Shown here piece by piece: positions 22,734 through 42,409 of a DNA stretch of 64,000 nucleotides; the stretch's first letter is position 1, and each line of letters opens with the position of its first letter. The position numbers and the translations under genes are program-made. The DNA is from an uncultured Pelagibacteraceae bacterium (lineage in GTDB: Bacteria; Pseudomonadota; Alphaproteobacteria; Pelagibacterales; Pelagibacteraceae), in contig CACMPD010000003.1 of assembly GCA_902615425.1 (NCBI GenBank), forward strand, positions 1 to 64,000, in the 5' to 3' direction. The notes beneath the pieces were generated by a model, which did not search any database, was not told the origin of the DNA, and worked only from the letters and a program-made list of their open reading frames with translations.

Positions 22734-22758
22734 AGAGCGGACTTTAAAAGTCCGCTCT
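22734..22758 (-). terminator. Hairpin between dctP and dctQ
   Basis: An 11-bp perfect stem (AGAGCGGACTT / AAGTCCGCTCT) with a 3-nt loop sits between the dctP stop and the dctQ start. It is among the most GC-rich inverted repeats in the window. On the minus strand it is followed by AATTTTTTTAAC, so it can act as a partial terminator or mRNA stabiliser that lets dctP be expressed above dctQM. Confidence 0.75.
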
Positions 22759-22781
22759 AAAAAATCAAGATTGATTACTGA

Positions 22782-23876
22782 TTACTTTAATGTTGCTGCG
22801 TGAGCCATTCCTAGCTTCGCATTAGACATTTGAGCACCACTCCAATAAGGAACTGCTATATCAGCAAACTCTTTCATAGAGTCGTATACCTTTTTAAAAA
22901 ATGCGTTTTGTTCAGCATTTTTGTTCAAAGAAGCTAAAGCAGCAGCCATATATTCCGTGAAATAATCTGAAGGTGTATCTTCTAGTTTTACTCCATGTTT
23001 AGTAGTAAGCTCTCTTAAAGCTTTACCATTCTCATAGATTCTGTAACTTAAAGATTTTGCTAATGAAGCATTAGCAGCTACTTCAAGTGACTTTTTCTCA
23101 TGAGCACTCATAGCATTATATGTTTTTCCAGTAATATAAAAGTCAGCATTTACGACTACTTGGTGTAAACCTTGTAAGTAATAATGCTTTAATACTTTTT
23201 GGAAACCAAATGTTAAGTCTGGTTTTGGACAACACCACTCAGCAGCATCGATAGTTCCTGCTTCAAGAGCTGGAAGAATATCTCCACCACCCATTGCAAC
23301 AGACGCTATACCAATGTCTTTATAAGTTTGTCCTGGAATTCCTGGAGGAGTTCTGAACTTATATTTTCTAAAGTCAGCCATATCTTTAATTGGTTTTGGA
23401 AACCAACCTAAAGCTTCTGGACCAACTGGTTGAATCATAAATCCTTTAATATCTCTTCCCATTTCTTTCCAAAGTTGGTCGTATAACTCTTTACCACCAC
23501 CATATTGGAACCATGATAGGAATGCGATATTATCTATGCCTACTCCACCACCAGCTACTGGCGAACCAAATAACATAGCCGCAGGGTGATCACCTGACCA
23601 ATAGTGAGTCCATGCAAAACCACAATCAATCAAACCTTTGTCAACAGCATCTAGGGTTTCTTTAACTCCTACAACTGCACCCGCTGGTAAAATTTCAAAT
23701 TTTAATGATCCACTTGTTAATTCAGTTACTGTGTCAGTAAAGTCCTTTAACATTTTAACTTCATCAGCCTTAGTGTTAAGAACAGTTTGACACTTTAATG
23801 TTTTTGCAGCATTAGCACTAGAAGTAAATCCTAGTACCAAAATAGTTGCAAATAACATTGAAATGATTTTTTTCAT
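22782..23876 (-). CDS. dctP: TRAP transporter solute-binding protein (DctP/TakP-like)
   Basis: A periplasmic binding protein with a clear signal peptide (MKKIISMLFATILVLGFTSSANA, cleavage near residue 23). The mature protein shows the DctP segments KFRTPPGIPGQTYKDIG (about 170-187) with the ligand-contacting Arg, and GDILPALEAGTIDAAEW (about 197-213). The latter resembles TakP-type 2-oxoacid-binding proteins. It is 364 aa. A good AGAGGA ribosome-binding site precedes the ATG. It is the first gene of the dctPQM unit. The substrate class (organic acid) is inferred. Confidence 0.93.
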   Translation of the reverse strand: MKKIISMLFATILVLGFTSSANAAKTLKCQTVLNTKADEVKMLKDFTDTVTELTSGSLKFEILPAGAVVGVKETLDAVDKGLIDCGFAWTHYWSGDHPAAMLFGSPVAGGGVGIDNIAFLSWFQYGGGKELYDQLWKEMGRDIKGFMIQPVGPEALGWFPKPIKDMADFRKYKFRTPPGIPGQTYKDIGIASVAMGGGDILPALEAGTIDAAEWCCPKPDLTFGFQKVLKHYYLQGLHQVVVNADFYITGKTYNAMSAHEKKSLEVAANASLAKSLSYRIYENGKALRELTTKHGVKLEDTPSDYFTEYMAAALASLNKNAEQNAFFKKVYDSMKEFADIAVPYWSGAQMSNAKLGMAHAATLK

Positions 23877-24009
23877 TATTATTATTCCTCTCTGTAGTTA
23901 ATTATAAGTAGATAATACAATCAGAAAAACAAACCCGGCACAAGTGACAATTGATAAATATAAGTGTAAAAGCATTAAAAACTTAAACTAAAAAACGATT
24001 CAACTATTG

Positions 24010-25605
24010 ATGGAAAATTTTGATTACATAATTATTGGAGCAGGATCTGCAGGATGTGTTCTAGCAAACAGACTTTCTGAAAATCCAAACAATAAAGTCG
24101 TATTAATTGAAGCTGGTGGAAAAGATAATTATCCATGGATACATATTCCTGTTGGATATTTTAAAACCATGCACAATCCCTCTGTTGATTGGTGTTATAA
24201 AACCGAGCCTGATGCTTCAATGAACAATAGATCAATTCTTTATCCAAGAGGTAAAACGTTAGGTGGTAGCTCTTCGATCAACGGTCTACTTTATATAAGA
24301 GGGCAAAGCAGAGATTATGATATTTGGCGACAATTAGGAAATACTGGTTGGGGTTGGGATGATGTTCTGCCATATTTTATAAAGGCAGAAAACCAAGAAA
24401 GAGGAAAAAATGAATTTCATGGTATTGATGGGCCTCTATCAGTTTCTGATCAAAGAATTCAGTTGCCATTATTAAATGAATTTCAAAATGCCGCCGAGGA
24501 GTTTGGTATCCCTAAAACGAAAGATTTTAATACAGGCGATAATCATGGATGTGGTTATTTTCAAGTTACTGAAAAAGATGGCTTCAGATGTAGTACTTCA
24601 GTTGGATATCTAAACCCAATAAAAAACAGACAAAATTTAAAAACGATAACTAATGCTCATGTAAAAAAAATTAATTTTGAGGGTAAAACTGCAAAAGGAA
24701 TTGAATACTGGCAAGGTGATGAGCTTAAAAAATTAACTTGTAATAAAGAAATAATTTTATCATCTGGTTCGATAGGTTCACCTCAGATATTGCAAACTTC
24801 TGGAATAGGAAATTTTCAAAAATTAAAAGATTTAGGTATAGATGTAGTACAAGAATTAAAAGGTGTAGGTGAAAATTTACAGGATCACTTGATGTTTAGA
24901 CCTGTATATAAAATTCAAGGACTTAAATCCTTAAATAAAAAGGTTAATAGTTTATTTGGAAAATTAATGATTGGTCTGGAATATGTTTTTAATCGAAGTG
25001 GACCAATGACGATGGGAGCGAGTCAAATGTGTATGTTTGCTAAAAGTGATCCTTCCTTAGAATTACCTGATTTACAATGGCACGTTCAACCAATGAGTAT
25101 GGATACTTTAGGAGCAACTAAAAATCATGATTTTCATGCTTTCACACCAACTGTTGCCAATATAAAACCTACTAGTAGAGGTCATGTGAGTATCGTAGAC
25201 AAAGATTCCAGAATATATGCAAAAATAAAAATGAATTACCTTTCAACTGATCATGATCGAATGGTTGCAGCTAGAGGATTAAAACTTACAAGAAAAATTG
25301 TCATGGAATCTGAAACATTTAAAAAATATAAGCCTGAGGAATATAGACCAGGTATTGACATTAATGATGACGAGGAACTTGTAAGAGCAGGCTCAGATTT
25401 TACACAAACAATTTTTCATCCAGTTGGCACATGTAAAATGGGTCAAGATGATATGGCTGTAGTTGATGAAAAACTAAAAGTAAAAGGAATTGAGAATTTA
25501 AGAGTAATTGATGCTTCTATAATGCCAAATATTACATCAGGTAATACCAATGCACCTACGATAATGATTGCAGAAAAAGGTGCTGATATGATACTTACCC
25601 ATTGA
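24010..25605 (+). CDS. GMC family FAD-dependent oxidoreductase
   Basis: A flavoprotein of the choline/alcohol dehydrogenase type. The N-terminal FAD motif DYIIIGAGSAGCVLANRLSE, the signature GKTLGGSSSINGLLYIRG (about residues 78-95) and the C-terminal active-site region HPVGTCKMG...DASIMPNITSGNTNAP (about 477-517) are intact. It is 531 aa from the ATG at 24010; the TTG three bases earlier in the ORF track is not needed. The substrate could be choline or another primary alcohol and is not resolved. It is divergent from dctP and overlaps the next gene by one base (TGATG). Confidence 0.92.
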   Translation: MENFDYIIIGAGSAGCVLANRLSENPNNKVVLIEAGGKDNYPWIHIPVGYFKTMHNPSVDWCYKTEPDASMNNRSILYPRGKTLGGSSSINGLLYIRGQSRDYDIWRQLGNTGWGWDDVLPYFIKAENQERGKNEFHGIDGPLSVSDQRIQLPLLNEFQNAAEEFGIPKTKDFNTGDNHGCGYFQVTEKDGFRCSTSVGYLNPIKNRQNLKTITNAHVKKINFEGKTAKGIEYWQGDELKKLTCNKEIILSSGSIGSPQILQTSGIGNFQKLKDLGIDVVQELKGVGENLQDHLMFRPVYKIQGLKSLNKKVNSLFGKLMIGLEYVFNRSGPMTMGASQMCMFAKSDPSLELPDLQWHVQPMSMDTLGATKNHDFHAFTPTVANIKPTSRGHVSIVDKDSRIYAKIKMNYLSTDHDRMVAARGLKLTRKIVMESETFKKYKPEEYRPGIDINDDEELVRAGSDFTQTIFHPVGTCKMGQDDMAVVDEKLKVKGIENLRVIDASIMPNITSGNTNAPTIMIAEKGADMILTH

Positions 25606-26199
25606 TGTTTGCTGAATTATTTACACCAGAACAATTAACTATATTAACTCAAATTATTTTAATCGATTTAGTCCTTGCAGGAGACAATGCAATAATAATT
25701 GGTATGGTTGCATCAAAATTTCCTTTAGAGCAAAGAAGAAAAATTATTATTTTTGGAATTGGTGGTGCGGTTGTTTTAAGAATTATTTTAACTTTACTGA
25801 CTGCATATTTACTTCAAATAACTGGGCTAAGGCTTTTTGGAGGTTTGCTTCTTCTTTATATTGTCTATAAATTATATGTTGATGTAATTAAAGGCTCTGA
25901 AAATCAAAGTGATATAAAAGTTGATAATTCCAGTTTTTTCAAAGCGATTTGGACAATCCTCTTAGCAGATTTTACAATGAGCTTAGATAATGTGTTAGGA
26001 GTTGCGGGGGGCAGCTGGAGATCATTATGGATTATTAGTATTTGGTTTGGTTCTATCAATTGCATTAATGGCATTTGCAGCAACTTTAATATCAAATTGG
26101 ATAAAGAAATATAAATGGATTGCTTGGGCAGGTTTGATTGCAATATTAATTGTTGCTATTGAATTGATTTACACAGATATTAAAATATTGTTTTTATAA
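25605..26199 (+). pseudogene. TerC/YjbE family membrane protein, frameshifted at a G6 run
   Basis: The first 131 codons encode a normal TerC-family N-terminus (IDLVLAGDNAIIIGM, then ADFTMSLDNVLGVAG), with the paired acidic metal-site motifs. After the run GGGGGG at 26006-26011 the frame shifts and soon loses similarity, while the other frame continues the expected sequence (AAGDHYGLLVFGLVLSIALMAFAA...). Removing one G restores a single protein of about 197 aa ending at 26199. TerC-family proteins are multi-helix membrane proteins linked to metal (Mn) export or tellurite resistance. The one-base gain in a homopolymer may be a sequencing error or a true, possibly phase-variable, mutation. Its ends overlap both flanking genes by one base. 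Confidence 0.85.
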
Positions 26200-26966
26200 T
26201 GTATTTAAAAAATTATAACTTAAAGAATAAAACTGCAGTTGTCACTGGTGCTGGCAAAGGGCTTGGAAGGGCTTGTGCAATAGCACTTGCAGAAGCTGGA
26301 GCAAATTTGATTATAATTAGTAGAACTAAAAAAGATCTAGATGAAGTTTCAAAAAAGATTGAAAAATTAAAGTCAAAATGTAAATCTTATGTATGTGACA
26401 TCACAAATTATAATGAAATTAAAGGCATTATTAATAAACAACCAAAAATAGATATTTTGATTAATAATGCTGGCAATAATATTCCTGAACATTTTACAAA
26501 AGTGAAAACTAAAAACATGGAATATCTTGTAAAGATTAATACGATGGCAACTTTTAACCTTGCTCAGCTGTGTGCTCTTAAGATGATAAAGTCAAAAAAT
26601 AGAAAAAAAATTGGTGGTTCAATTGTCAATATGTCATCACAAATGGGTCATGTAGGGGGTCCTATTCGAAGCGTATATAACATGACAAAATTTGGTTTAG
26701 AGGGATTAACAAAAGGTATGTCTATTGATCTTGCAAAATACAACATACGAGTAAATACAGTTTGTCCTACATTTGTAGTCACGCCAATGACAAAAAAATT
26801 TCTAAAAAGTAAAAAATTTAAAAAAGAAGTATTAGGAAATATTCCATTAGGAAAATTTGCTGAACTTTCTGATGTTTCAAGTGCAGCTGTTTTTCTTGCC
26901 TCTGATGCTGCATCAATGATTACAGGAACCTCATTATTGGTTGATGGTGGATGGACTGCAAGATAA
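26199..26966 (+). CDS. SDR family oxidoreductase
   Basis: Short-chain dehydrogenase with TGAGKGLG cofactor motif (about residues 17-24), NNAGNN near 90, catalytic Ser in VNMSSQMG (about 148) and YNMTKFG (about 162-168). The C-terminus SLLVDGGWTAR is typical. It is 255 aa. Substrate unknown. It is in the plus-strand run with GMC oxidoreductase and TerC-like gene and may act with the GMC enzyme on the same alcohol or its product. It overlaps the M23 gene by 16 nt. Confidence 0.87.
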   Translation: MYLKNYNLKNKTAVVTGAGKGLGRACAIALAEAGANLIIISRTKKDLDEVSKKIEKLKSKCKSYVCDITNYNEIKGIINKQPKIDILINNAGNNIPEHFTKVKTKNMEYLVKINTMATFNLAQLCALKMIKSKNRKKIGGSIVNMSSQMGHVGGPIRSVYNMTKFGLEGLTKGMSIDLAKYNIRVNTVCPTFVVTPMTKKFLKSKKFKKEVLGNIPLGKFAELSDVSSAAVFLASDAASMITGTSLLVDGGWTAR

Positions 26967-27754
26967 TAATTAGATTATTTTTTTTAATTTTTTGTTTTTT
27001 ACCAACGCATTCAATAGCAATAGAATTTACAGGAAAATTTCAACAAGGACACTTTATTATTGGAAAGACTGATCCAACAGCAAAAATTATAATTGATAAA
27101 AAACAAGTCAAAGTATCAGAGGATGGTTTTTTTGTTTTTGGTCTAGATAGAGATAGAAAGTTTGATTTAACAATTACAAAAATTGTTAATGGAAAAAAAG
27201 ATAAAATAATCAAGAAAGTTCTTAAAAGGAAATATAATATTCAAAGAATAGATGGTTTGGAAGAAAGTAAAGTCACGCCTCCTGAGTCTGTTTATAAAAG
27301 AATAAAAGAAGAAAATAATAAAATTGGAAAAGCCAGAGCCATTAACTCAGATTTACCCTTTTTCAAAAATCAATTTATTATGCCAGTTGAAGGTATTATC
27401 AGTGGTGTCTATGGAAGCCAAAGAATTCTAAATGGTAAACCTAAATGGCCTCATTATGGAATTGATATTGCTGCTAAACAAGGAACTATGATCAAGTCAT
27501 CCGGATCTGGTATTGTTACCATGGCAGAAGATGATCTTTATTATACGGGTGGAACAATAATTATGGACCATGGTCATGGCATCTCCACTATTTATTCACA
27601 TCTTGAAAATGTAATGGTTTCTGTTGGAGATAAAATTAATCAAGGAGATATAATTGGGACTGTGGGTTCAACTGGAAGATCGACTGGCCCGCATCTAGAT
27701 TTTAGAGTAAATTGGTTTCAGACTAGACTAGATCCTATGTCAATAATAAAGTAA
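26951..27754 (+). CDS. M23 family metallopeptidase (LytM-type)
   Basis: An exported peptidoglycan endopeptidase-like protein. A signal peptide occupies about residues 1-24 (FFLIFCFLPTHSIA). The LytM domain begins near residue 140 and shows the zinc-site motifs HYGIDIAAKQGT (about 172-183), HGHGISTIYSHLE (about 211-223) and HLDFRVNW (about 250). All four zinc-site residues look present (first His, Asp, and the later His pair), so it is probably active. It is 267 aa. Cell-wall remodelling is the expected role. Confidence 0.9.
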   Translation: MDCKIIIRLFFLIFCFLPTHSIAIEFTGKFQQGHFIIGKTDPTAKIIIDKKQVKVSEDGFFVFGLDRDRKFDLTITKIVNGKKDKIIKKVLKRKYNIQRIDGLEESKVTPPESVYKRIKEENNKIGKARAINSDLPFFKNQFIMPVEGIISGVYGSQRILNGKPKWPHYGIDIAAKQGTMIKSSGSGIVTMAEDDLYYTGGTIIMDHGHGISTIYSHLENVMVSVGDKINQGDIIGTVGSTGRSTGPHLDFRVNWFQTRLDPMSIIK

Positions 27755-27757
27755 GTA

Positions 27758-28693
27758 ATGAAAAAAATTTCAATAATTTTAATATTAAGTTTAAGTTTTA
27801 TAAATTTTATATTTTTAGGTGCAAAAGCGCAGTCTTATAAAGTTAATGATATTGTAGAAGATAAATTTTTTATTAGCAAAAAATTTGTAATTGATTTGCC
27901 AAAGGGTCAATGGATAATTGCTGAAAAATCATCTGAATACTATTATGGTCTAAGGTCAAAAATATACTCATTATTGAGATTAGAAAATAAAAAAGCAGTT
28001 GAAGGGATAGAAATCGCTGAGATGCATACTGCAGGAATATATGAGTGGATTGTTAATCAAGCAATTTATGAAGCTATGTTTAAAAACAAGTTTGATGGCT
28101 GTTATGAAAGACCTGAGTATTCAATTGTCAGATTTTTTAGGAAAGGTAGTTCTCATGATTGTTTTTGGGCAGGTCATTTTGATGTTTATAAAGAACTTTT
28201 TACTCCAGAGGATCCAGATCTTAGAACTGCTAATGCACAATTAAGAAGATATATTAAAAAAAATAAAATTGAATTACCAAAAGTAGCTTTATTTAGTAAT
28301 CACTCTTATTTTTCAAGATTAAGAGCTGGTAAATGGTATGCAATATCTTATCAAATTGATCCCAAAATTCTTGGTGGACCAAAAAATAAATTTGTTACTG
28401 AAGATAGTTCAGAATACCATAAAAATAATATTGAAAATTATCCTGAACACAAAAAAATTATGAAAAAATGGATATCTATTTCTGCAAAAAGACATAAAGA
28501 TTTTGAAAATTCTATTAATGCTTTAGATAGACATAAACTTGATTTAAATGATTTAATTTTTCCTGAAGATGTCCCAAATACAAATAATTCTGAGGATATT
28601 ACCAGTCAAATACAAAAATTATATGATTTGTATACAAATGGAATTTTGTCCAAAGAAGAATTTGATAAAGCAAAAAATAAACTTTTAAATTAG
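27758..28693 (+). CDS. Hypothetical secreted protein with C-terminal SHOCT-like domain
   Basis: A signal peptide (about residues 1-25) precedes about 245 residues without a family I recognise. The last about 30 residues (IQKLYDLYTNGILSKEEFDKAKNKLLN) match the SHOCT short C-terminal domain, an oligomerisation module with the L..L...G.I..EEF...K..LL pattern. A pair of cysteines near residues 112 and 131 could form a disulfide. It is 311 aa and 3 nt after the M23 gene, suggesting a shared envelope role. Confidence 0.75.
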   Translation: MKKISIILILSLSFINFIFLGAKAQSYKVNDIVEDKFFISKKFVIDLPKGQWIIAEKSSEYYYGLRSKIYSLLRLENKKAVEGIEIAEMHTAGIYEWIVNQAIYEAMFKNKFDGCYERPEYSIVRFFRKGSSHDCFWAGHFDVYKELFTPEDPDLRTANAQLRRYIKKNKIELPKVALFSNHSYFSRLRAGKWYAISYQIDPKILGGPKNKFVTEDSSEYHKNNIENYPEHKKIMKKWISISAKRHKDFENSINALDRHKLDLNDLIFPEDVPNTNNSEDITSQIQKLYDLYTNGILSKEEFDKAKNKLLN

Positions 28694-28696
28694 AAT

Positions 28697-28819
28697 ATGC
28701 AAACATTAATTCTATTAGCTTTAGTGATCGTGATTGGGTGGATATTATTCAGACCTATCACAAAAAAAGAACTGGATAGATTTAATGATAAAGACTGGCC
28801 AGATATGGATTTACATTAA
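28697..28819 (+). CDS. Single-helix microprotein (40 aa)
   Basis: A 40-codon frame starting 3 nt after the SHOCT protein stop. It begins with one hydrophobic helix (MQTLILLALVIVIGWILF), then a polar tail ending DKDWPDMDLH. The tail is acidic. Its stop overlaps the convergent xsc stop by 4 nt. Too short for the ORF track. Function unknown, but the tight spacing and normal N-terminal helix favour a real gene. Confidence 0.55.
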   Translation: MQTLILLALVIVIGWILFRPITKKELDRFNDKDWPDMDLH

Positions 28820-30600
28820 GAATTTAAAGAAGGCTGTTTCTTCATATCTTCTTTTTTAATGCCAGCTACTCTTACTGGTTTTTTCATGGCATCTCTTCTA
28901 AAAGGTTCACCTAATTCTTGATTTAATATCACTTCAATAAATGTTGTAATACCTTTCTTTTGATCCTCACAAGATTGTTTAATAGCTGCTGTAGTCTCTT
29001 CCATAGTTTTAACAGTAACACCTTTTAAACCACAAGCGTCTGCTACTTTTGCAAAACTTAATTCTGGATCAAGTTCTGTGCCAACAAAATTATTATCAAA
29101 CCAAAGAGTTGTATTTCTTTTTTCAGCACCCCATTGGTAGTTTCTAAAAATTACCATTGTAATTGCAGGCCACTCCTCTCTTGCACAAGAGCTCATTTCG
29201 TTCATGCTTATTCCAAATGCACCATCTCCAGCAAAACCAATTACAGGTGTATCTGGACAACCAATTTTAGCACCTAATATTGATGGAAAACCATAACCAC
29301 AAGGACCAAATAAACCTGGTGCTAAATATTTTCTTGGCTTTTCAAATGTTGGATACGCATTTCCGATTGCGCAATTGTTTCCAATATCACTAGATATAAT
29401 TACATCCTCAGGCATGCCTGCTTGGATTGCTCGCCAAGCTTGTCTTGGTGACATTCTATCTGAGTCTCTCTCTCTAGCTTCTTTGTTCCAAACTGTTCCT
29501 TCGTCATCATCTTCGTGATCTAAACTTGATAATTTTTGTAACCATGCTGATTTTGTTTGGTGAATTAAATCTTTTCTTTTTTGTCTATCAGTATCTCCAG
29601 CATTTGAAGATAATTTTTCTAAAATCTGCGTTGCTACCAATTTTGCATCACCACTAATTCCAACTGTAACTTTTTTAGTTAATCCAATTCTATCTGGATT
29701 CATGTCGACTTGAATTATGCTTGCTTTTTTTGGCCAATAATCAATTCCATAACCTGGTAGAGTTGAAAAAGGATTTAATCTTGTTCCTAAAGCTAAAACT
29801 ACATCAGCCTTAGAAATTAATTCCATCGCAGCTTTTGATCCATTATATCCTAGTGGTCCAACAGCCAACGGATGACTTCCAGGAAAACTATCATTGTGTT
29901 GATATCCTGAGCAAACAGGCGAATCAAGTTTTTCAGCTAGTTTTTTAGTTTCCTCAATTGCGCCACCAATAACAACACCTGCTCCAGATAAAATTACCGG
30001 AAATTTCGCTTTAGATAATAAATCTGCTGCTTTAGCAATTGCATCAGCACCTCCACCTTGTCTTTCTAATCTGACGATTGGAGGAAGGTCTATATCAATT
30101 ACTTGACACCAATAATCTCTTGGAACATTAATTTGTGCTGGTGCTGAACCTCTTATTGCTTTTTCTATTACTCTATTTAAAACTTCAGCCATTCTTGAGG
30201 GGTCTCTTACCTCTTCTTGATAACAAACCATATCTTTAAATAAATTCATTTGTTCTACTTCTTGAAAACCACCTTGCCCCATAGTTTTGTTTGCAGCTTG
30301 TGGGGTTACCAGCAATAAAGGTGTGTGGTTCCAATAAGCAGTTTTGATTGGTGTTACTAATCCTGTAATACCTGGACCATTTTGTGCAATGACCATTGAC
30401 ATTTTTCCTGTAGCTCTAGTGTAACCATCTGCAATCAAACCACCATTTGTTTCGTGTGCCACATCCCAAAAGGTAATTCCTGCGTCTGGAAAAATATCAG
30501 ATATAGGCATGAACGCTGAACCAATAATTCCAAAAGAGTGTTCAATACCATGCATTTGTAAAACTTTTACAAAAGCTTCTTCTGTTGTCATTTTAGTCAT
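28816..30600 (-). CDS. xsc: Sulfoacetaldehyde acetyltransferase
   Basis: A thiamine-diphosphate enzyme that converts sulfoacetaldehyde and phosphate to acetyl phosphate and sulfite. The N-terminus MTTEEAFVKVLQMHGIEHSFGIIGSAFMP and the segment AQNGPGITGLVTPIKTAYWNHTPLL are strongly Xsc-like. The ThDP motif GDGAFGISMNE... lies near residue 458. It is 594 aa, usual length. It is divergent from the suyAB-like pair. Sulfite produced here needs removal, matching the TauE-type and Apr genes nearby. I kept the track start; an ATG three codons later is also possible. Confidence 0.95.
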   Translation of the reverse strand: MTKMTTEEAFVKVLQMHGIEHSFGIIGSAFMPISDIFPDAGITFWDVAHETNGGLIADGYTRATGKMSMVIAQNGPGITGLVTPIKTAYWNHTPLLLVTPQAANKTMGQGGFQEVEQMNLFKDMVCYQEEVRDPSRMAEVLNRVIEKAIRGSAPAQINVPRDYWCQVIDIDLPPIVRLERQGGGADAIAKAADLLSKAKFPVILSGAGVVIGGAIEETKKLAEKLDSPVCSGYQHNDSFPGSHPLAVGPLGYNGSKAAMELISKADVVLALGTRLNPFSTLPGYGIDYWPKKASIIQVDMNPDRIGLTKKVTVGISGDAKLVATQILEKLSSNAGDTDRQKRKDLIHQTKSAWLQKLSSLDHEDDDEGTVWNKEARERDSDRMSPRQAWRAIQAGMPEDVIISSDIGNNCAIGNAYPTFEKPRKYLAPGLFGPCGYGFPSILGAKIGCPDTPVIGFAGDGAFGISMNEMSSCAREEWPAITMVIFRNYQWGAEKRNTTLWFDNNFVGTELDPELSFAKVADACGLKGVTVKTMEETTAAIKQSCEDQKKGITTFIEVILNQELGEPFRRDAMKKPVRVAGIKKEDMKKQPSLNS

Positions 30601-30648
30601 TTGTAGAACCTTTCTAAATTACTTTAGAACAATTTTTTTAAAAATTAA

Positions 30649-30676
30649 TTGTTAATTTTTGCGATTAATATATAAG
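30649..30676 (+). promoter_or_regulatory. Candidate promoter for suyAB
   Basis: TTGTTA followed after 16 bases by TATAAG lies 40 bases before the suyA start, in the 115-bp divergent gap between xsc and suyA. The match is moderate and AT-rich DNA makes such patterns common. Confidence 0.35.
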
Positions 30677-30715
30677 ATTTTAGAAAATTCAAACAAACAA
30701 ATCGACACTATATAA

Positions 30716-31000
30716 ATGTCAACAGATATTATAATTCACGACAAAAAAGACAATGTTGGTGTGGTTGTAATAGAAAAAATAACTCCAAAACAAGATTGTA
30801 AATGCTGGATAATGGAGAACGACAGCTCAGTAAACATTCAATCAGCAGATGAAATCCATTTAGGCCATAAAATTGCAATGATTGATTTAAAAGAGGGTGA
30901 TACGATTTTAAAATATGGTCACGATATAGGTAAAGTGGTCAAAGCAATTAAAAAAGGTCAACATGTGCACGTTCATAACGTCAAAACAAAAAAGTGGTAA
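30716..31000 (+). CDS. suyA: (2R)-3-sulfolactate sulfo-lyase alpha subunit-like (SAF domain)
   Basis: A 94-aa protein matching the small SAF-type subunit of the UxaA/SuyA family (IHLGHKIAMIDLKEGDTILKYGHDIGKVVKAIKKGQHVHVHNVKT). SuyA with SuyB cleaves sulfolactate to pyruvate and sulfite. The same domain occurs as the N-terminal part of altronate dehydratase, so sequence alone does not fix the substrate. The adjacent xsc and sulfite genes argue for sulfolactate. It is 4 nt upstream of suyB. Confidence 0.8.
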   Translation: MSTDIIIHDKKDNVGVVVIEKITPKQDCKCWIMENDSSVNIQSADEIHLGHKIAMIDLKEGDTILKYGHDIGKVVKAIKKGQHVHVHNVKTKKW

Positions 31001-31004
31001 TTAG

Positions 31005-32171
31005 ATGGAAATTCCAAAAAGTTTTTTAGGTTATAAAAGAGAAAATGGCAGGGCTGGAACAAGAAACCATGTAATTATTTTACCTGTTGATGATATTTCA
31101 AACGCATGTGCTGAAGCAGTGGCAAATAACATTAAAGGAACAATAGCTCTTCCTCATTCTTATGGAAGATTACAATTCGGAGCAGATTTAGAATTGCATT
31201 TTAGAACGATGATTGGAACTGGTAGCAACCCAAATGTAGCAGCAGTAATTGTGATTGGTATTGAACCTAAATGGACTAAGAGAATTGTAGATGGAATTGC
31301 AAAAACAGGAAAACCAGTCGAGGGTTTCCATATTGAACGTACTGGTGATATTGGAACAGTAATGAAAGCTTCAAAAAAAGCTCAAGAATTTGTTATGTGG
31401 GCCTCTGAAAAACAAAGAGAGGAATGCCCGATAAGTGATTTATGGATTTCAGTAAAATGTGGAGAGTCTGATACTACTTCTGGATTAGCTTCCAATCCAA
31501 CTGTTGGAAATTTAATGGATAAGCTTGAACCACTTGGAGTTCATTTGTGTTTTGGAGAAACATCAGAACTTACAGGGGCAGAAAAAGTTTGTGCTACAAG
31601 AGGTGCTACAAAAGAAGCATCAGATAAATTTATGAAAACTTGGAGTGCTTATAACGATTTTATTTTAAAAGAAGCAACGGATGACCTTTCTGAAAGTCAG
31701 CCAACTGCTGGTAATATAGCTGGTGGTTTAACAACTATTGAAGAAAAAGCTTTTGGAAATTTTCAAAAAATAGGAAATTGTAAATTTGTTGATGTTTTAG
31801 AACCAGCTGAAGAACCAAAAAAAGGAAAAGGTTTATACTTTATGGATACTTCATCTGCTGCAGCGGAGTGTGTAACACTACAAGCAGCTGCGGGATTTAA
31901 TATTCATTTATTCCCTACCGGTCAGGGTAATATTGTGGGAAATCCTATTGAACCAGTTATAAAATTAACTGCAAACCCGTTAACAGTTAAATCTATGGGG
32001 GAACATATTGATTGTGATGTTTCAAAAATTCTCTCAAGAGAAATGAATTTATCTGAAGCTGGAGATGAATTAATCAAAACAACTTTAAAAGTTGCAAATG
32101 GTAGACTCACTTGTGCTGAAGCTTTAGGTCATAGAGAATTCGTAATGACCAAATTATACCGAAGTGCTTAA
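31005..32171 (+). CDS. suyB: (2R)-3-sulfolactate sulfo-lyase beta subunit-like (UxaA family)
   Basis: A 388-aa UxaA-type hydro-lyase. The N-terminus [34 protein letters not shown] and the motif [20 protein letters not shown] (about residues 151-170) match the family, with Cys, Glu and Asp ligands likely to bind the catalytic metal. The C-terminal region contains the conserved [20 protein letters not shown]. Sulfolactate is favoured over altronate by gene context: xsc next door, and sulfite exporter and Apr genes beyond. No hexuronate genes are nearby. It converges with the TauE-type gene. Confidence 0.82.
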
Positions 32172-32176
32172 AATTT

Positions 32177-33262
32177 TTACTTAGCTGGCTTACTAAAATG
32201 CTTTTTTTTTAAATCAGACAAAAATCTTCGAATAAATGCAGCTGCCACACCTAAAGCTATGGCAAAAAATATAGAAAATAAACTATATACAATTGGCATA
32301 TCTTTAGAAAATTTTTGAACTAAAACTGATAATGGTGTTAAGTCTTTTTCTGCAACCTTAGTGATACCATTCATAGTATGATCAACAAAAAAAGTATCAT
32401 ACGCAATTGCAATTCCAACAATTAATAGCAAAACTGCTAATAGCGCTTTTAGTCCTGAACTTTCAATTGATTGTCCAATTTTTTGACCTGTTTGTACTCC
32501 AATTATCGAACCAATAACCAACATTAAAACTAAAATTAGATCTATAGAACCATAATTAAATGCATGTAAAAAAGTAACAATTACACTAACAAAGATAGTT
32601 ACAAACAAAGAAGTTCCTGGAACTAATTTTGTTGGCATACCAATTATATAAATCATTGCAGGTACTAGTATGAAAGCTCCACCAATACCCATAATAGCTG
32701 CTATAAAACCTACAAATAAACCAATGATAATTGGTGTGAACGCACTTTCATATAATTTTGATTTAGGAAATCTCATCCTAAAAGGGAGACCATGTATCCA
32801 ATAATGAACATGTAATTTTCGTTTTACAATAGTATTTTTTCTTGCTTTATCGATCTCACCAAGACTTTCAACTAGCATTAAAGTTCCAATAATTGCCAAG
32901 ATATACATGTAAGCAAGTGAGATAACAGTATCAATTTTGCCGATGTCTTTAAAATAAGTAAATGTATAAATTCCAATAATAGTTCCTATTGCACCACCGA
33001 TGACAATCATAAAACCCATTTTATAATCCAATGTATTTTTAAGATAATGAGTAGTAGATCCAGAAACAGAGGTAGCTAAAATATTATTTGCTTCATTGGC
33101 AACGGCATAAGCTGGTGGAACACCTAAAAAGATTAAGAAAGGTGTCATTAAAAAACCACCTCCTACTCCAAATAGTCCCGATAAAACTCCAACTAAAGCA
33201 CTTAATAAAATGATTTCAATAGCAGTAACATGTACTTGTGCTATTGGTAAGAATACTTCCAT
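32177..33262 (-). CDS. TauE/SafE family sulfite or organosulfonate exporter
   Basis: A 361-aa multi-pass membrane protein of the TauE/SafE/DUF81 family. The N-terminal motif LSALVGVLSGLFGVGGGFLMTPFLIFLGVPP (about residues 20-50) and its repeat GFIAAIMGIGGAFILVPAMIYIIGMPT (about 190-217) give the family's two-fold repeat. TauE-like proteins are proposed to export sulfite or sulfoacetate. It lies at the end of the apr gene run and next to suyB, so sulfite export is the likely role. Confidence 0.85.
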   Translation of the reverse strand: MEVFLPIAQVHVTAIEIILLSALVGVLSGLFGVGGGFLMTPFLIFLGVPPAYAVANEANNILATSVSGSTTHYLKNTLDYKMGFMIVIGGAIGTIIGIYTFTYFKDIGKIDTVISLAYMYILAIIGTLMLVESLGEIDKARKNTIVKRKLHVHYWIHGLPFRMRFPKSKLYESAFTPIIIGLFVGFIAAIMGIGGAFILVPAMIYIIGMPTKLVPGTSLFVTIFVSVIVTFLHAFNYGSIDLILVLMLVIGSIIGVQTGQKIGQSIESSGLKALLAVLLLIVGIAIAYDTFFVDHTMNGITKVAEKDLTPLSVLVQKFSKDMPIVYSLFSIFFAIALGVAAAFIRRFLSDLKKKHFSKPAK

Positions 33263-33290
33263 TTAAAATAATTAACTTTTTTAAAAAAGT

Positions 33291-33425
33291 TTATTTGAAA
33301 GTTAAAAAAGTTCCAAATAATATTACACCCCAGCAAGCTAATATTGCTGAAAAAATTCCTGTTTTAATTAATGCTGTTTTATAATTTAAGATTTTTTGTA
33401 AAATTTTTATATTTGAAAGGTGCAT
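33291..33425 (-). CDS. Single-helix microprotein in apr locus (44 aa)
   Basis: A 44-codon ATG-to-stop frame, not in the ORF track, between the 116-aa gene and the TauE-type gene on the same strand. It has a basic N-terminus (MHLSNIKILQKILNYKT) and one hydrophobic helix (GIFSAILACWGVILFGTFLTF) near the C-terminus. The spacing (about 43 nt after the 116-aa stop, 28 nt before the exporter start) fits an operon member. Possible small subunit or regulator of the exporter or of AprM; this is inference. Confidence 0.5.
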   Translation of the reverse strand: MHLSNIKILQKILNYKTALIKTGIFSAILACWGVILFGTFLTFK

Positions 33426-33468
33426 CTATATCCTCAATAGCACCAGCAGGAAAATTGTCAAACTTAAA

Positions 33469-33819
33469 TTAATAAATTGTTGCTCCAAAAATTTTTACTT
33501 CGCCATCCTCAACTCCAAGGACCAGCCTTCCTAAAAATTCTCCAGGCACCTCCTTATTAGTCTGCTTAATCAATATAGTAATATGATCACCTCTTCTTAA
33601 TGTTCCGAACGGTTCATAGGTCTCATTTAAATTGGTAATAATCTTGTTGTTAGCCCACTGCTTTCCAAGCTCTACTTCGTTAGCTCCAAACAGCATTTGG
33701 GTAGAGAAATCTCTAGTAAAGCCACCATAATCTTTCATATTTGAGGCTCTTACGAGATTTTCCCAAAAAGGCTTAGCTATCGCGAATATCTCCTCGTCAG
33801 ATTTTTTCAAAAGGTCCAT
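33469..33819 (-). CDS. Uncharacterised 116-aa protein of the apr operon
   Basis: Located 21 nt downstream of aprA on the same strand. The pattern (N-terminal helices, then FSTQMLFGANEVELGKQWA, a G-x-x-G turn and a C-terminal beta-rich segment ending GEVKIFGATIY) resembles an NTF2/SnoaL-like cone fold with a pocket, but no named family is certain. No signal peptide, so probably cytosolic, like AprAB. A role in sulfite oxidation is inferred only from position. Confidence 0.75.
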   Translation of the reverse strand: MDLLKKSDEEIFAIAKPFWENLVRASNMKDYGGFTRDFSTQMLFGANEVELGKQWANNKIITNLNETYEPFGTLRRGDHITILIKQTNKEVPGEFLGRLVLGVEDGEVKIFGATIY

Positions 33820-33840
33820 AAAGAAGCTTAAAATATGGTG

Positions 33841-35700
33841 TTACGAAGCCTTCTTCTTCTCTTTTTCGTCAACGATATGATAAACAGGTACTTTCTCCAA
33901 AGTAAATTTTCCTGTTTTAGGGTCTCTTCTAGAAACTGTTAAGCAATGCCAATTTTCATCATCAAGCTTCATATGATCACCTCTGTAGTAATAACCTGGC
34001 CAACGAGTTTCTTCTCTAAATAATGTATGCTCTGTTACACATTGTGAGGTTAAAGCTCTGTGTTTAAGCTCCCAGGCTCTCATTAATTGATGATAATCCT
34101 CAGCTCCTACATTTTCCAAATCTTCCTGTAACCATTCTAGAAGTTCGAGAGCTCTCTTAAGCATATTGCCGTTCGTCATATAATTTGAGGTAATTCCCCC
34201 AACATACTCATCCATAATTTTTTGAAGTCTTTGTAATCCTTGTATTGGAGAAATATAACTTGGTGAAACAGTTCCGCCGGTGATCTCATTTTGAGCAACT
34301 GTGTAAGTCTCTAAAGGTTTATAAACTGCCTTTTTAAAATCATCACATTGTTTATCGCTAACATTTATTCCTTCTGCTTTTTTGTCCTCTATATATTTAA
34401 CTGCTGCTTTTGCGGCTAATCTTCCCTCTGTAAAAGAACCTGATGAAAATTTATGAGCACTACCTCCTACCGTATCTCCAGCACCAAAAAGGCCATCAAT
34501 TGTAAGCATTCTATTGTAACCCCAGAAATATTCTGGTGGTGATAGATCTTCTGGTCCACTTACCCAAGCTCCAGAGCATGTTGCGTGTGATCCCATTACG
34601 TAAGGCTCAGAAGTTGTTAATTCAGGATTTGTATACTTTGGATCGATATTTTGAGATGCCCAAACTACAGCTTGACCAACAGTCATTCCTAAAAAGTTTT
34701 CCCAACCTACTGTTTCTAAATGAGGATCTTGGAAAGCTTCTTTAGTTACCATATGTATTGGTCCGCCACCTGCAGCAACTTCCTGAATAAATGCGTGGTT
34801 TCTCAAGCAAGTAGGGGTTGGATGATGATCAATATATTCTCCAACTAATTCTTTAGTTTGTTCATACCATTTTTTCTCGTAATTTTCGCCATTAGCATTT
34901 TGTGTGTATGTTTTTAAATGTAAAAAATAAGCTCCAACTGGTCCGTAACCATCTTTAAATCGGCACAATACAATTCTATTTTCCATTTGAGTCATCTTTG
35001 CACCTGCTGCAATAGGTAAAGCGTAAGCAGATCCATTACTCCATGGTGCATACCAAGTTCTTCCCATACCTTCTCCAACCGCTCTTGGTTTAAAAATATG
35101 TGATGCTCCACCAGCTGAGACTATAACTGCCTTAGCTCTGAACACATGAAAATCACCTGTTCTCATATTAAAACCAACTGCGCCACCAATTCTATTTTCT
35201 TGAGACTCATCCATTAACAAATGAGTAATCATTATTCTGTTATAAATTTTATCTGCTGATTTTTTTGCGGCCTCAGCAACAATTGGCTTATAACTTTCTC
35301 CATGAATCATTATTTGCCATTTACCTTCTCTTAAATATCTTCCAGTTTTTTCATTTTTCATCATTGGAAGACCCCACTCATCAAACATATGAACAGTTGA
35401 GTCTACATGACGAGCCATGTCATAACCCAAATCTTCTCTAACCATTCCCATTAAATCATTTCGGGCATACCTTACATGGTCTTCAGGTTGATTTTCATCC
35501 CATTGCATACCCATATAACAATTGATTGCATATAAACCTTGTGCGACTGCACCACTTCGATCAATGTTTGCTTTTTCAACACAAACAATCTTTAAATCTC
35601 TTCCCCAATGTCTGGCTTCAAATGTTGCTCCTGTGCCGGCCATTCCACCACCAACAACTAATACATCACACTCCTCATAATGTGTTTTGTGCTTAGCCAT
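33841..35700 (-). CDS. aprA: Adenylylsulfate reductase alpha subunit
   Basis: FAD subunit of APS reductase, here expected to run in reverse and oxidise sulfite plus AMP to APS. The N-terminal FAD motif DVLVVGGGMAGTGATFEARHW is near residue 11, and the substrate-site regions RFKDGYGPVGAYFLHLKT (about 247) and FGAGDTVGGSAHKFSSGSFTEGRLAAKAA (about 400-428) match the family. It is 619 aa, normal. It overlaps aprB by one base. Heterotrophic SAR11 are known to carry aprABM; a detoxification role for sulfite from organosulfur compounds has been proposed. Confidence 0.96.
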   Translation of the reverse strand: MAKHKTHYEECDVLVVGGGMAGTGATFEARHWGRDLKIVCVEKANIDRSGAVAQGLYAINCYMGMQWDENQPEDHVRYARNDLMGMVREDLGYDMARHVDSTVHMFDEWGLPMMKNEKTGRYLREGKWQIMIHGESYKPIVAEAAKKSADKIYNRIMITHLLMDESQENRIGGAVGFNMRTGDFHVFRAKAVIVSAGGASHIFKPRAVGEGMGRTWYAPWSNGSAYALPIAAGAKMTQMENRIVLCRFKDGYGPVGAYFLHLKTYTQNANGENYEKKWYEQTKELVGEYIDHHPTPTCLRNHAFIQEVAAGGGPIHMVTKEAFQDPHLETVGWENFLGMTVGQAVVWASQNIDPKYTNPELTTSEPYVMGSHATCSGAWVSGPEDLSPPEYFWGYNRMLTIDGLFGAGDTVGGSAHKFSSGSFTEGRLAAKAAVKYIEDKKAEGINVSDKQCDDFKKAVYKPLETYTVAQNEITGGTVSPSYISPIQGLQRLQKIMDEYVGGITSNYMTNGNMLKRALELLEWLQEDLENVGAEDYHQLMRAWELKHRALTSQCVTEHTLFREETRWPGYYYRGDHMKLDDENWHCLTVSRRDPKTGKFTLEKVPVYHIVDEKEKKKAS

Positions 35701-36170
35701 TAATAATAAACACCTTTTTTAAAAGACTCTTTTGGAACCGATGGTAATTCTTTATTGGTATTTAATCCTTCTGGCTCACTATATAATCTTTGTGAATTAA
35801 TTTCTCCTTGATTGGGAGTATCACCTTCAGCAAGTTTAGGAATAAATTTTCCCCAAGGTTTTGTTGTTATAGGTGAAACGAAGTTTTTCTCTGTTCCGTT
35901 TCTAAATTTAATTTTCCAAGAGATAGTTCCTTTTTCTTCTTCTCTTCTAACTCTAACGCTGTGACCCATCGGAGCAAAATCAGCATACCCTCTCACATCA
36001 ATTGCATGATTAGGACATGCTTTAACACACGAATAACATTCCCAACAAAAGTTTGGTTCAATATTTTTTGCTCTTCTGATATTTTCATCAATGTGCATGA
36101 TATCTGAAGGACATATATCTACGCAATGACCACAGCCATCGCATCTTGTCATGTATACAAAAGTTGACAT
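35700..36170 (-). CDS. aprB: Adenylylsulfate reductase beta subunit
   Basis: Iron-sulfur subunit of AprAB. Two ferredoxin-like cluster motifs are seen: CDGCGHCVDICPSD (about residues 10-23) and CWECYSCVKACPNH (about 42-55), giving two [4Fe-4S] clusters that shuttle electrons to the membrane partner. The C-terminal half is the AprB-specific tail that wraps around AprA. It is 156 aa. It sits between aprM and aprA in one operon. Confidence 0.96.
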   Translation of the reverse strand: MSTFVYMTRCDGCGHCVDICPSDIMHIDENIRRAKNIEPNFCWECYSCVKACPNHAIDVRGYADFAPMGHSVRVRREEEKGTISWKIKFRNGTEKNFVSPITTKPWGKFIPKLAEGDTPNQGEINSQRLYSEPEGLNTNKELPSVPKESFKKGVYY

Positions 36171-36203
36171 AATTTTTATTTTTCTCCTTTTTCTATTAAC
36201 ATA

Positions 36204-36998
36204 TTAATAATGTTTTGGCTCTTCTCTTTTTATACCCAGGCCAAATTGTTCTGGGGCATCAGCTGGTGGAGGTAAATTATCCCTAGATCCATCTGCCTCT
36301 GCTAAATTTTTTTGAATAGCTGCTCCAGGTTTATAAAACATGTGAGCGAATTTAGACCAATAAACACCACCGAATAAAATTAAGTTAGATGCAACAAATA
36401 AAATTAAAAATAAATAAGACAAACCTGTTTGCCCATTAAATTGTGTGAATGACCAAGCTAACCCAAAAGTTGAACACGCAAGTAATGCTAAAACAAATAA
36501 ATCTGCTTTTATAATCCTATACCAAGGATGGGCTTCTGCTGAAACATCAACTCTTAAAAAAAACCAAAACCAATATCCTCCTAAACATGTTAATATTGCT
36601 CCTGCATGCCAAATCATTGACCAAGTTTGAGAACTTGGTTTATCAGCACCTGTATAACAAAAAACTAAAATAGCTGAAGACACCCAAAATAAAATTGTGC
36701 CATACATTCCTAGAACATGGGCCAGTCTTCTTTTACCAAAACCTAATTCAGAAGTTGTACCAATATCAACGACTGTTGTTTTAGCAATGACAGAAACTTT
36801 TTCTCCAACTCCTAATTTTTTTGTTGCTGAAAGCTTTGCTTTTTTCGCGTTGTTAAAAAAATAAGTCAAATTTTTGTGATGTATCATCTGAATAATAGTT
36901 CCTACTGCAATTAACAAAACCATAGCAATAATGAAAGATTGCATTGCTAAGGGTGAGATGGTTTCTGATAAAATTGAAAATGGATTGCTACTTAACAT
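36204..36998 (-). CDS. aprM: AprM-type membrane protein (electron acceptor of AprAB)
   Basis: A 264-aa inner-membrane protein with about five to six helices, encoded directly upstream of aprBA, the arrangement of aprMBA sulfite-oxidation loci. Helices fall near residues 18-38, 92-115, 128-150, 165-188 and 192-218. Histidines in LAHVLGMYGT and IWHAGAIL are candidates for haem ligands as in related b-type cytochrome-like subunits. AprM is proposed to take electrons from AprB to the quinone pool. The C-terminus is Pro-rich. Confidence 0.88.
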   Translation of the reverse strand: MLSSNPFSILSETISPLAMQSFIIAMVLLIAVGTIIQMIHHKNLTYFFNNAKKAKLSATKKLGVGEKVSVIAKTTVVDIGTTSELGFGKRRLAHVLGMYGTILFWVSSAILVFCYTGADKPSSQTWSMIWHAGAILTCLGGYWFWFFLRVDVSAEAHPWYRIIKADLFVLALLACSTFGLAWSFTQFNGQTGLSYLFLILFVASNLILFGGVYWSKFAHMFYKPGAAIQKNLAEADGSRDNLPPPADAPEQFGLGIKREEPKHY

Positions 36999-37098: not shown

Positions 37099-37497
37099 CT
37101 AATTATTTCTTTTATAATGTTGTTTGTTTGGAATGACTGATCGTACTCCACCCTGGGGATTGTCAACATCTCCTTCCCTTCGGGGAATCAGATGAAAATG
37201 ACAATGTAAAATAGATTGACCAGATACAATTCCTATATTTGTACCTAGATTAAATCCTTTAACTAACGGATCTTTATTAGTTATTTCTTTTTTAACAATT
37301 TTTATAAGATCATTACATGCAACCAATTCATCATTGGATAGGTCAAAATAATCCTTTATGTGTCTTTTGGGTATAATCAAACAATGATGTTCTGAAACTG
37401 GATAAGAGTCATAACTTGCATATGCCAAATCATTTTCATGAGTGCATCCACTTTTTTTAACGTCACAAAATAAACAAGGATTGTTTGGATCTTTCAT
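37099..37497 (-). CDS. HIT family protein
   Basis: A histidine-triad nucleotide hydrolase/transferase. The triad HCHFHLIPRREGD is near residue 98-106, and the N-terminal CLFCDVKKSGCTHEND shows a CxxC zinc-like motif as in bacterial HIT proteins. It is 132 aa. It probably hydrolyses a nucleoside phosphoramidate or dinucleotide; exact substrate unknown. It lies 3 nt downstream of the pabC-like gene and closes the metC-MFS-pab run. Confidence 0.92.
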   Translation of the reverse strand: MKDPNNPCLFCDVKKSGCTHENDLAYASYDSYPVSEHHCLIIPKRHIKDYFDLSNDELVACNDLIKIVKKEITNKDPLVKGFNLGTNIGIVSGQSILHCHFHLIPRREGDVDNPQGGVRSVIPNKQHYKRNN

Positions 37498-39943: not shown

Positions 39944-41164
39944 TTATTCTGTTTTTAGTCTTAAAACTGGTTCTTCTCTAATTGGTAGATGAATTATTGC
40001 TGCAAAAACTGATAATGCAATTGCTAAATACCACGCATAATCATATGACCCATATAAATCATAAAATAAACCCCCTAGATAAGCGCCAAAGAAAGATCCT
40101 ACTTGGTGACTTAAAAAAACAATTCCATATAATAGACCTAAATACTTTGTCCCAAACAGGTGAGCTACAATTCCACTTGTTGCAGGCACTGTCGATAACC
40201 ATAAAAAACCAAAACTTGCACCAAATAAAAATGCATTAATATTACTTGCGGGCATAAATATAAAAAAAATTATAGAAACACCTCTTAAAAAGTAAATTGC
40301 ACTAAGGATAATTTTCTTACTCATTTTTGCTGAAAGATAGCCACTTAATAGTGAACCAAAAATGTTAAATAAACCAATTAAAGATAAAATTGCTGCTGCA
40401 GTCCAATCCTCAAGACCTCTATCTATTACATATTTAGGTACATGCGTTCCAACCAAAGTTATATGAAAACCACATACAAAAAACCCTGATACAAGTAAAA
40501 TATAACTTTTAGTTTTAAAAGCTTCTGAGAGAGCTTCCTTAAAAGATTGATCTGAAGTTTTTTCGATACTTTCCGTTATAGATGGAGATCTAACAAAATA
40601 TGCTGCAACTAAACCAGATAACAAAAATAAGCAAAAAACAAATAATGTATAGTTCCAACCAAACTCTGTGAGAGAAAAATTAGTGAAAATTGGTGAAAGA
40701 AAGTAACCAAATGATCCAACAGCAGTAACAAAACTCATTGCAATCGTTCTTGTAGATAATGGAAAGTGTTTCCCCACAACTGACATAGGAATACTTATTG
40801 CCGTTCCACCAAGACCTATTCCGATTAATAAACCCATATGGATTTGAAAAAATATTCCAGTATTTGGACCCGTGTATAAAAAATAAACACCTAAAGTATA
40901 AAAAATAAATGCTCCGATTATAGCAATATGTCCTCCGTATTTATCTGCTATAGCTCCGAAGATAGGACCTGTTATACCCCACATCAACATCTGCATCCCA
41001 ATTGCAAAACCAAATGCGGTGTTGCTTATCTTTAAACTCTCGTTGAAGTCCATAAAGAACAAACCAAATGTTTGTCTGACACCCAAAGAAATCAGAACAA
41101 CAAAACATGCAGCAAATAAAGTTACTATCGCAGTTTTTGAGCGAAAAAATTTTTCAGAACTCAT
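39944..41164 (-). CDS. MFS transporter (OFA/oxalate-formate antiporter-like)
   Basis: A 406-aa major facilitator with about 12 helices. The first-half motif FGAIADKYGGHIAIIGAFIFYTLGVYFL (about residues 68-95) is the MFS A-motif region (GxxxDRxGxR-like), and LSLIGLFNIFGSLLSGYLSAKMSKK repeats it in the second half. Overall it resembles the OFA/monocarboxylate group. Substrate unknown. It overlaps metC by 4 nt and precedes pabB by 1 nt, but a functional link to either is not obvious. Confidence 0.87.
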   Translation of the reverse strand: MSSEKFFRSKTAIVTLFAACFVVLISLGVRQTFGLFFMDFNESLKISNTAFGFAIGMQMLMWGITGPIFGAIADKYGGHIAIIGAFIFYTLGVYFLYTGPNTGIFFQIHMGLLIGIGLGGTAISIPMSVVGKHFPLSTRTIAMSFVTAVGSFGYFLSPIFTNFSLTEFGWNYTLFVFCLFLLSGLVAAYFVRSPSITESIEKTSDQSFKEALSEAFKTKSYILLVSGFFVCGFHITLVGTHVPKYVIDRGLEDWTAAAILSLIGLFNIFGSLLSGYLSAKMSKKIILSAIYFLRGVSIIFFIFMPASNINAFLFGASFGFLWLSTVPATSGIVAHLFGTKYLGLLYGIVFLSHQVGSFFGAYLGGLFYDLYGSYDYAWYLAIALSVFAAIIHLPIREEPVLRLKTE

Positions 41165-42336
41165 CTTAAATGTCTTAAAGCTTGTTTGATATCAGCAATC
41201 AAATCATTAGGATCTTCAAGACCTATATGTAATCTTACTAAATGTTCATCTTTTGGTAAGTTCATATATTTTCTTTTACCAGTTTCTCTAAATTCTTGAT
41301 GAAGCGCTAAACTCTCAAATCCACCCCAACTATAGCCATAGCCAAACAATTTCAGTGAATTTACAAACTTTCGAACAGAATTAATATTCTTAGCTTTTAT
41401 CTTTAATCCCATTAAACCTGACGCTCCAGAATAATATTTTTTCCACATTCTAAAATTTTGTGAATTTTTTTTGAAAGGATATAACAATTTAATTCTTTTA
41501 TTTTTTGATAAAAATGCTGCAACTTTTTTAGCATTTTCTCTATGTCTGTCTAATCTTACGTCTAACGTTCTTAATCCCCTAGTTATTAAATAAGCATCAT
41601 CAGGTCCTAATCTAAGACCTGTAATTTTTTCTGCTGCTTTAACTTTAGAAAATACTCTTTTATTTACTGCCAAACTTCCACCCATAACATCTGAATGTCC
41701 AGAATAATATTTAGTTGCAGAGACAATTGACATATCAAAACCAAGTTTAATTGGTTTTAAGTAATAAGGGGTACCCCAAGTATTATCAATTGCAGTGTAT
41801 AGCTTATGTTTTCTTGCAATCGAAATAATTTTACCCAAGTCTTGAAAATCAAAAGTATTACTTCCAGGATTTTCAACAAAAATCAATTTTGTTTTCTTTG
41901 TAATATTGTTTTTTAATGTATTGAGGTCATGAGGATTATAAAAAACTGTCTTTATATTAAAATCTTTTAGATAATCTTCAGTTAAAATTCGTGTAGGGCT
42001 GTAAACTGGATCTGCAACTAACATTTCATCTCCAGGTCTAACAACGCTGAATATTGCTAAAAAAACGGAGCCAAAACCTGTTGGTGTCGTAAAAACATGA
42101 TAACTTTCTTCAAGTTTTGTTAAAATTTTTTGTAATATATAAGTAGTAGAAGTCCCTTGTCTGCCGTAATCAAAATGACCACCTGTTGGATTTCGTAGAG
42201 CTTTTTTTTGAGTTTTTCTTATATGTTGCATAGACTTAAAAATAATTGTCGATGCTCTAACCACTGGTGGATTTACTGATTGATTATGAAAATCTTTTGC
42301 AGTGTGTTTTAAAAATGTCTTAAAAGATTTACCCAT
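41161..42336 (-). CDS. metC: Cystathionine beta-lyase (Cys/Met metabolism PLP enzyme)
   Basis: A fold-type I PLP enzyme of the trans-sulfuration family. The PLP lysine is in SIVSATKYYSGHSDVMGG (about residue 195), the phosphate-binding region is TTPTGFGSVFLA, and the RLHIGLEDPNDLIADI segment near the end is typical. It should convert cystathionine to homocysteine, pyruvate and ammonia. I start at an internal ATG (MGKSFKTFLKH), because homologues begin shortly before VNPPVVRASTIIF; the track's upstream ATG at 42375 would add 13 unusual residues. It is 391 aa from this start. Confidence 0.9.
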   Translation of the reverse strand: MGKSFKTFLKHTAKDFHNQSVNPPVVRASTIIFKSMQHIRKTQKKALRNPTGGHFDYGRQGTSTTYILQKILTKLEESYHVFTTPTGFGSVFLAIFSVVRPGDEMLVADPVYSPTRILTEDYLKDFNIKTVFYNPHDLNTLKNNITKKTKLIFVENPGSNTFDFQDLGKIISIARKHKLYTAIDNTWGTPYYLKPIKLGFDMSIVSATKYYSGHSDVMGGSLAVNKRVFSKVKAAEKITGLRLGPDDAYLITRGLRTLDVRLDRHRENAKKVAAFLSKNKRIKLLYPFKKNSQNFRMWKKYYSGASGLMGLKIKAKNINSVRKFVNSLKLFGYGYSWGGFESLALHQEFRETGKRKYMNLPKDEHLVRLHIGLEDPNDLIADIKQALRHLR

Positions 42337-42409
42337 AAAAAAATTGATATGATTAAAGGACAATGCTATATCCATATCAAAAATTCAATAAATTAATGAA
42401 AAGGATTTA

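Follow-up and report, generated by a model that had tools for sequence, protein, structure and literature searches.

SAR11 bacteria rank with the most abundant cells on Earth, and sulfonates such as taurine serve as major currencies of carbon and sulfur in the sea. In the 64,000 nucleotides of SAR11 DNA analyzed here (the window), genes for releasing sulfite from sulfonates adjoin genes for APS reductase (AprBA), raising the question of how a cell without ATP sulfurylase disposes of the APS. Sulfite detoxification by AprBA in SAR11 has been stated before (PMC5069961); xsc, suyAB, and aprAB have been described as core or near-core genes with the same explanation (PMC12636525), and SAR11 peptides for the steps from taurine to AprAB have been reviewed (PMC10356861). 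Sulfite disposal during sulfonate use is thus a supported explanation for the apr genes and not a new one. The portions of these three sources available to us make no mention of physical clustering, of a HIT protein, or of a small gene, u116. We newly propose a role for u116 next to aprA, the HIT protein as a candidate for splitting APS, and a YeiH-type gene as a putative exporter. Together with a kinase/nucleotidyltransferase pair of a sister family, these named candidates make the gap in APS disposal directly testable.

Gene order and its conservation

The window comes from a Pelagibacteraceae-type SAR11 genome, whose AprA is matched at 100% identity in several single-cell genomes of uncultured Pelagibacteraceae. 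The assembly of this genome totals 1.06 Mb (40 contigs, 80% complete). On the minus strand, in descending order, are a pabC-like gene, the HIT gene, aprM, aprB, aprA, u116, and tauE; suyA and suyB follow on the plus strand, and xsc is next, on the minus strand. A sequence-only reading of the window had placed xsc, suyAB, tauE, and aprMBA side by side, and open reading frames lie at all of these positions, with every call backed by family models or close relatives. The seven genes it named stand, but it overlooked u116, located at 33469–33819 between aprA and tauE; just beyond the range it covered sits the HIT gene (37099–37497).

The 80 nearest loci by AprA identity, a sample thereby biased toward close relatives, were fetched, and counts were limited to loci reaching far enough. 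Gene order is kept in nearly all of them: xsc is present in 70/71 loci with room, suyB in 75/76, tauE in 76/77, and u116 in 79/79, and the HIT gene is next to aprM in 68/69 loci with room. The arrangement noticed in the window is therefore real beyond chance, subject to this sampling bias. A few apr-containing genomes of the window's genus lack xsc; wherever this was checked, their locus lies close to the end of a contig or right at it. In one exception (L078), apr and u116 lead into sugar genes, a long run of which replaces tauE-suy-xsc from position 2596 onward. Genes are inserted at this point, between u116 and tauE, in L082 as well, where the insert is an NDP-sugar epimerase gene (12447–13421).

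Sulfite release by Xsc and a predicted SuyAB

The xsc gene (28816–30600, minus strand) encodes a sulfoacetaldehyde acetyltransferase with a full-length match to the NCBIfam equivalog TIGR03457 (residues 3–578; 966 bits, cut-off 676). Xsc would convert sulfoacetaldehyde, derived from taurine or isethionate, to acetyl phosphate and sulfite. The neighboring genes suyA (30716–31000) and suyB (31005–32171; PF20629, PF04295), both on the plus strand, code for a split small/large UxaA-family pair that sequence comparison places within a sulfonate-linked clade. Cupriavidus pinatubonensis has a UxaA-family pair in its hpsN-hpsO locus; SuyB is 65% identical over 384 aa to the large partner and SuyA 47% identical to the small one. 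SuyB is also 60–70% identical to a clade from sulfonate loci (hpsN-hpsO, TauE, and sulfate-exporter loci). Paracoccus has a similar pair close to genes for an Ldh-family dehydrogenase and a putative sulfate exporter, and Methylobacterium has one adjoining a TauE-family gene. This is strong evidence that the pair comprises the small and large subunits of a predicted (2R)-sulfolactate sulfo-lyase, SuyAB, which would cleave (R)-sulfolactate to pyruvate and sulfite.

The sequence-only reading had named an altronate role as one of two threats to its account. It is very improbable that the pair is a dehydratase of altronate, galactarate, or another hydroxy acid with no sulfonate link, even though galactarate/altronate dehydratase is the only name that Pfam and NCBIfam give it. 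SuyB has about 28–31% identity to annotated altronate/galactarate dehydratases, far from the values within the sulfonate-locus clade, the pair scores 160 with the galactarate dehydratase model (cut-off 731), and a separate fused UxaA homologue of ~500 aa, with 30–31% identity, is also present in seven congeners.

Adjoining xsc, a run of genes from 19284 to 28693 codes for an NCS1 transporter, TRAP DctMQP, a GMC oxidoreductase, TerC, an SDR, and an M23 peptidase, and parts of it are retained in some relatives. Its GMC oxidoreductase, SDR, and TRAP genes were considered as isethionate or DHPS enzymes and set aside: the SDR (26199–26966) has just 29% identity to HpsO, the TRAP binding protein is 21% identical to the one in Paracoccus, and the GMC oxidoreductase (24007–25605) is generic. 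The last was kept as a lead; in an unrelated genome (L186, 11212–13789), the neighbors of xsc are pta and a gene for a GMC oxidoreductase (46%), so a role as a sulfonate-alcohol dehydrogenase is worth a look. A protein resembling PLP enzymes of Cys/Met metabolism was read from the sequence near the locus (41161–42375).

Putative exporters

The product of tauE (32177–33262, minus strand) is a TauE/SafE-type sulfite exporter by its match to PF01925 (155 bits, Pfam cut-off 32.6). It was compared with the TauE-like gene of the Methylobacterium suyAB locus, and there is no real similarity. The space between tauE and suyB fits another gene in 66/77 loci, and in the two that were read this is a YeiH/PF03601 gene. 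It is missing in the remaining 11/77, all near the window's arrangement, and in the window itself. The YeiH-type gene plausibly encodes a sulfate exporter, the substrate being a family guess from a match below the NCBIfam cut-off, and in most relatives sulfate might leave the cell through it.

The sulfolactate locus of Paracoccus pantotrophus includes a sulfate exporter along with suyAB (Rein 2005, cited in PMC12421959), and P. seriniphilus has a homologous locus. The YeiH/PF03601 putative exporter near suyAB in most SAR11 relatives resembles this arrangement. The window differs from it in having neither sulfolactate dehydrogenase genes nor such a sulfate exporter beside suyAB, and in the apr genes that adjoin.

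AprMBA without ATP sulfurylase

APS reductase is encoded on the minus strand by aprA (flavoprotein subunit, 33841–35700; TIGR02061, 989 bits, cut-off 642) and aprB (iron-sulfur subunit, 35700–36170; TIGR02060, 188 bits, cut-off 136; PF12139). Alignment with the enzyme of Archaeoglobus fulgidus shows that AprA retains its active-site residues W234, R265, and H398. With both equivalog matches, these residues, and aprM upstream, AprBA is a lineage-I dissimilatory APS reductase. AprM (36204–36998, minus strand), a membrane protein of lineage-I apr loci, was recognized by its position: it is an integral membrane protein encoded directly upstream of aprB, its orthologues precede aprBA in relatives, and it has no Pfam family match and a weak QmoC-like match in NCBIfam. 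Lineage-I loci, including that of Pelagibacter ubique, have aprM directly upstream of aprBA (PMC2211403). SAR11 shares their aprM-aprB-aprA order and differs in having no sat and in the u116 gene that follows, of which the available portion of that source makes no mention.

The sequence-only reading saw no sat in the window. A profile search for ATP sulfurylase (PF01747) extended this to the window's own genome (80% complete) and to three single-contig congeners (G009, G267, and G357), and none was found. Among 61 SAR11 relatives, including a second SAR11 family, PF01747 was detected in one, a genome without apr. Thus, no ATP sulfurylase is present in any SAR11 apr-containing genome examined, compared with 19/20 apr-containing alphaproteobacteria outside SAR11. 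That SAR11 lacks sat was already known (PMC5069961, PMC10356861), and this within-class contrast, which is new, sharpens it. A complete AprBA-Sat pathway, with ATP sulfurylase in the genome, was not found. With the customary ATP-forming enzyme missing, the energy gain that had been read into the apr genes is unproven, and if the route runs to completion, APS must be split some other way.

We consider it likely that this SAR11 locus both releases and disposes of sulfonate sulfur, a judgment that covers sulfite release and the Apr/TauE core of disposal. We infer the following flux: part of the sulfite would be exported through TauE and part oxidized with AMP to APS by AprBA, with electrons passing into the membrane via AprM. 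'Ca. Taurinisymbion ianthellae' is similar in that xsc frees sulfite and AprAB oxidizes it to APS; it has Sat and QmoAB, whereas SAR11 has AprM and no Sat (PMC10356861). Evidence for the SAR11 flux includes the drop in apr transcripts under sulfur limitation in P. ubique (PMC5069961); against it, sulfate excretion from taurine has not been shown for cultured SAR11 (PMC10356861).

The tie between apr and xsc

In the second SAR11 family, aprM-aprB-aprA-u116 is retained with no adjoining tauE, suyAB, or HIT gene, and suyAB is present in 0/24 genomes. The xsc gene is 13–20 kb from apr on the same contig in 11 genomes, and its neighbors in the genomes read code for an omega-aminotransferase and a sarcosine-dehydrogenase-like protein. 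All 16 apr-containing genomes of this family have xsc, which is missing from 4/8 of those without apr (Fisher P = 0.007, relatedness ignored). Two complete genomes from another genus of the window's family are without apr, xsc, HIT, and u116. Because the second family lacks suyAB but always has xsc where apr is present, the tie is mainly one of apr to xsc, and it is conserved more widely than that of apr to suyAB.

These patterns bear on the proposal that SAR11 keeps apr to dispose of sulfite from sulfonates. Relatives with apr consistently lacking xsc, which had been named as grounds for abandoning it, were not encountered, and apr travels with sulfite-releasing genes in SAR11; the part given to suyAB is not essential. 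Outside SAR11, 14/20 apr-containing alphaproteobacteria have no xsc and 19/20 have sat, so the sulfonate explanation is specific to SAR11. In one second-family locus (L130, 12607–14310), a sulfatase gene (PF00884, 144 bits) is ~4 kb from aprM.

A small gene downstream of aprA

The u116 gene (33469–33819, minus strand) lies directly downstream of aprA and codes for an uncharacterized 116-aa protein with no sequence match in Pfam, NCBIfam, or PDB. It was found in 5/385 alphaproteobacterial genomes, all within the 23 that have aprA and always directly downstream of it. Two of the five belong to an unrelated family; as the five are three SAR11 genomes and two congeners, they represent two lineages and are not independent. 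The nearest folds to the predicted structure (AF2 pLDDT 78.5) are NTF2/ketosteroid isomerase, with weak scores (best Foldseek E value 1.3e-3, TM 0.4–0.6); the protein may have an NTF2-like fold, a prediction of moderate confidence. Our best guess is that u116 encodes an accessory protein, which would be dedicated to Apr. A homologue on a Methylomonas plasmid was dismissed (28% identity, E value 0.01, transposon context, no apr linkage).

Candidates for splitting APS

The most likely enzyme in the window for splitting APS is the HIT-family protein encoded next to aprM (37099–37497, minus strand), which might act as a phosphorylase (yielding ADP and sulfate) or a hydrolase (yielding AMP and sulfate). 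The 132-aa protein belongs to the HIT superfamily (PF01230, 62 bits, above cut-off; HxHxH triad), and 33 orthologues show little or no variation in the triad and a PQGGVR..I...QHY motif. The known APS:phosphate adenylyltransferase, that of Thiobacillus denitrificans, differs in being a larger protein of the GalT branch. Both APS hydrolysis and phosphorolysis have been reported for HIT proteins (PMC7072326), and APS + Pi → ADP + sulfate, the reaction predicted here, is a recognized route (PMC8551704). If the HIT protein does split APS, and by phosphorolysis, it would save an ADP.

The gene is present in 30/33 apr-containing congeners and in 0/4 congeners without apr, all counts from incomplete genomes, and three apr loci that are intact in other respects lack it (L082, G018, and G029). 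No dedicated HIT was found in the second SAR11 family. A few bases separate the HIT gene from its pabC-like neighbor, compared with about 110 on the aprM side, so it may belong to a pabC-like operon. It is quite possible, then, that TauE export is the real outlet for sulfite, with AprBA trimming the residue, housekeeping enzymes clearing APS, and the HIT gene a passenger of the pabC-like operon. The spacing and the three losses fit a passenger, a second, more distant HIT protein in nearly every genome fits housekeeping removal of APS, and adjacency of HIT and apr among close relatives is weak evidence because the whole flank is syntenic. This explanation sits less well with strong purifying selection on apr genes (PMC12636525) and with the distribution of the dedicated HIT, which no congener without apr has and neither of the two complete genomes from the other genus. 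An independent linkage of HIT, xsc, and apr in an unrelated alphaproteobacterium also speaks against it: aprBA-YkgJ-HIT (51%)-xsc form one run, although sat is present in that genome. A general link of this HIT subfamily to apr or xsc was rejected, since 1/10 members outside SAR11 is so linked (neighbors read for all but L223) and other alphaproteobacterial members stand in unrelated contexts. Among the neighbors of xsc on two plasmids there is no HIT gene.

On this evidence, we suggest only tentatively that the HIT protein splits APS in the window's lineage. The fuller proposal is somewhat more doubtful: SAR11 would finish sulfite oxidation without ATP sulfurylase, by means of a HIT protein of 132 aa dedicated to this step, and the u116 product would be a new accessory to Apr.

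It is unlikely that APS is consumed instead by a small P-loop kinase and an HxGH-type nucleotidyltransferase. This pair adjoins apr in the second SAR11 family, converging on u116, and is present in exactly the 16 apr-containing genomes and 0/8 of those without apr; that co-occurrence reflects physical linkage and so is not independent. The kinase resembles APS kinase (PF01583, 28.9 bits), whereas the nucleotidyltransferase weakly resembles NMN adenylyltransferase and is also found where apr was not detected (genomes G011, G014, G033, and G036). A homologous pair exists elsewhere in the window's genome (G000:C29), but the neighbors of the pair in this genus are dmdA and Rieske genes, as read here, or those of a sugar cluster. 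Apart from its bearing on APS, the combination of such a kinase with an HxGH-type nucleotidyltransferase recurs in SAR11 near dmdA-, Rieske-, and sugar-cluster-like genes (L155, L156, L157, L158, and L159).
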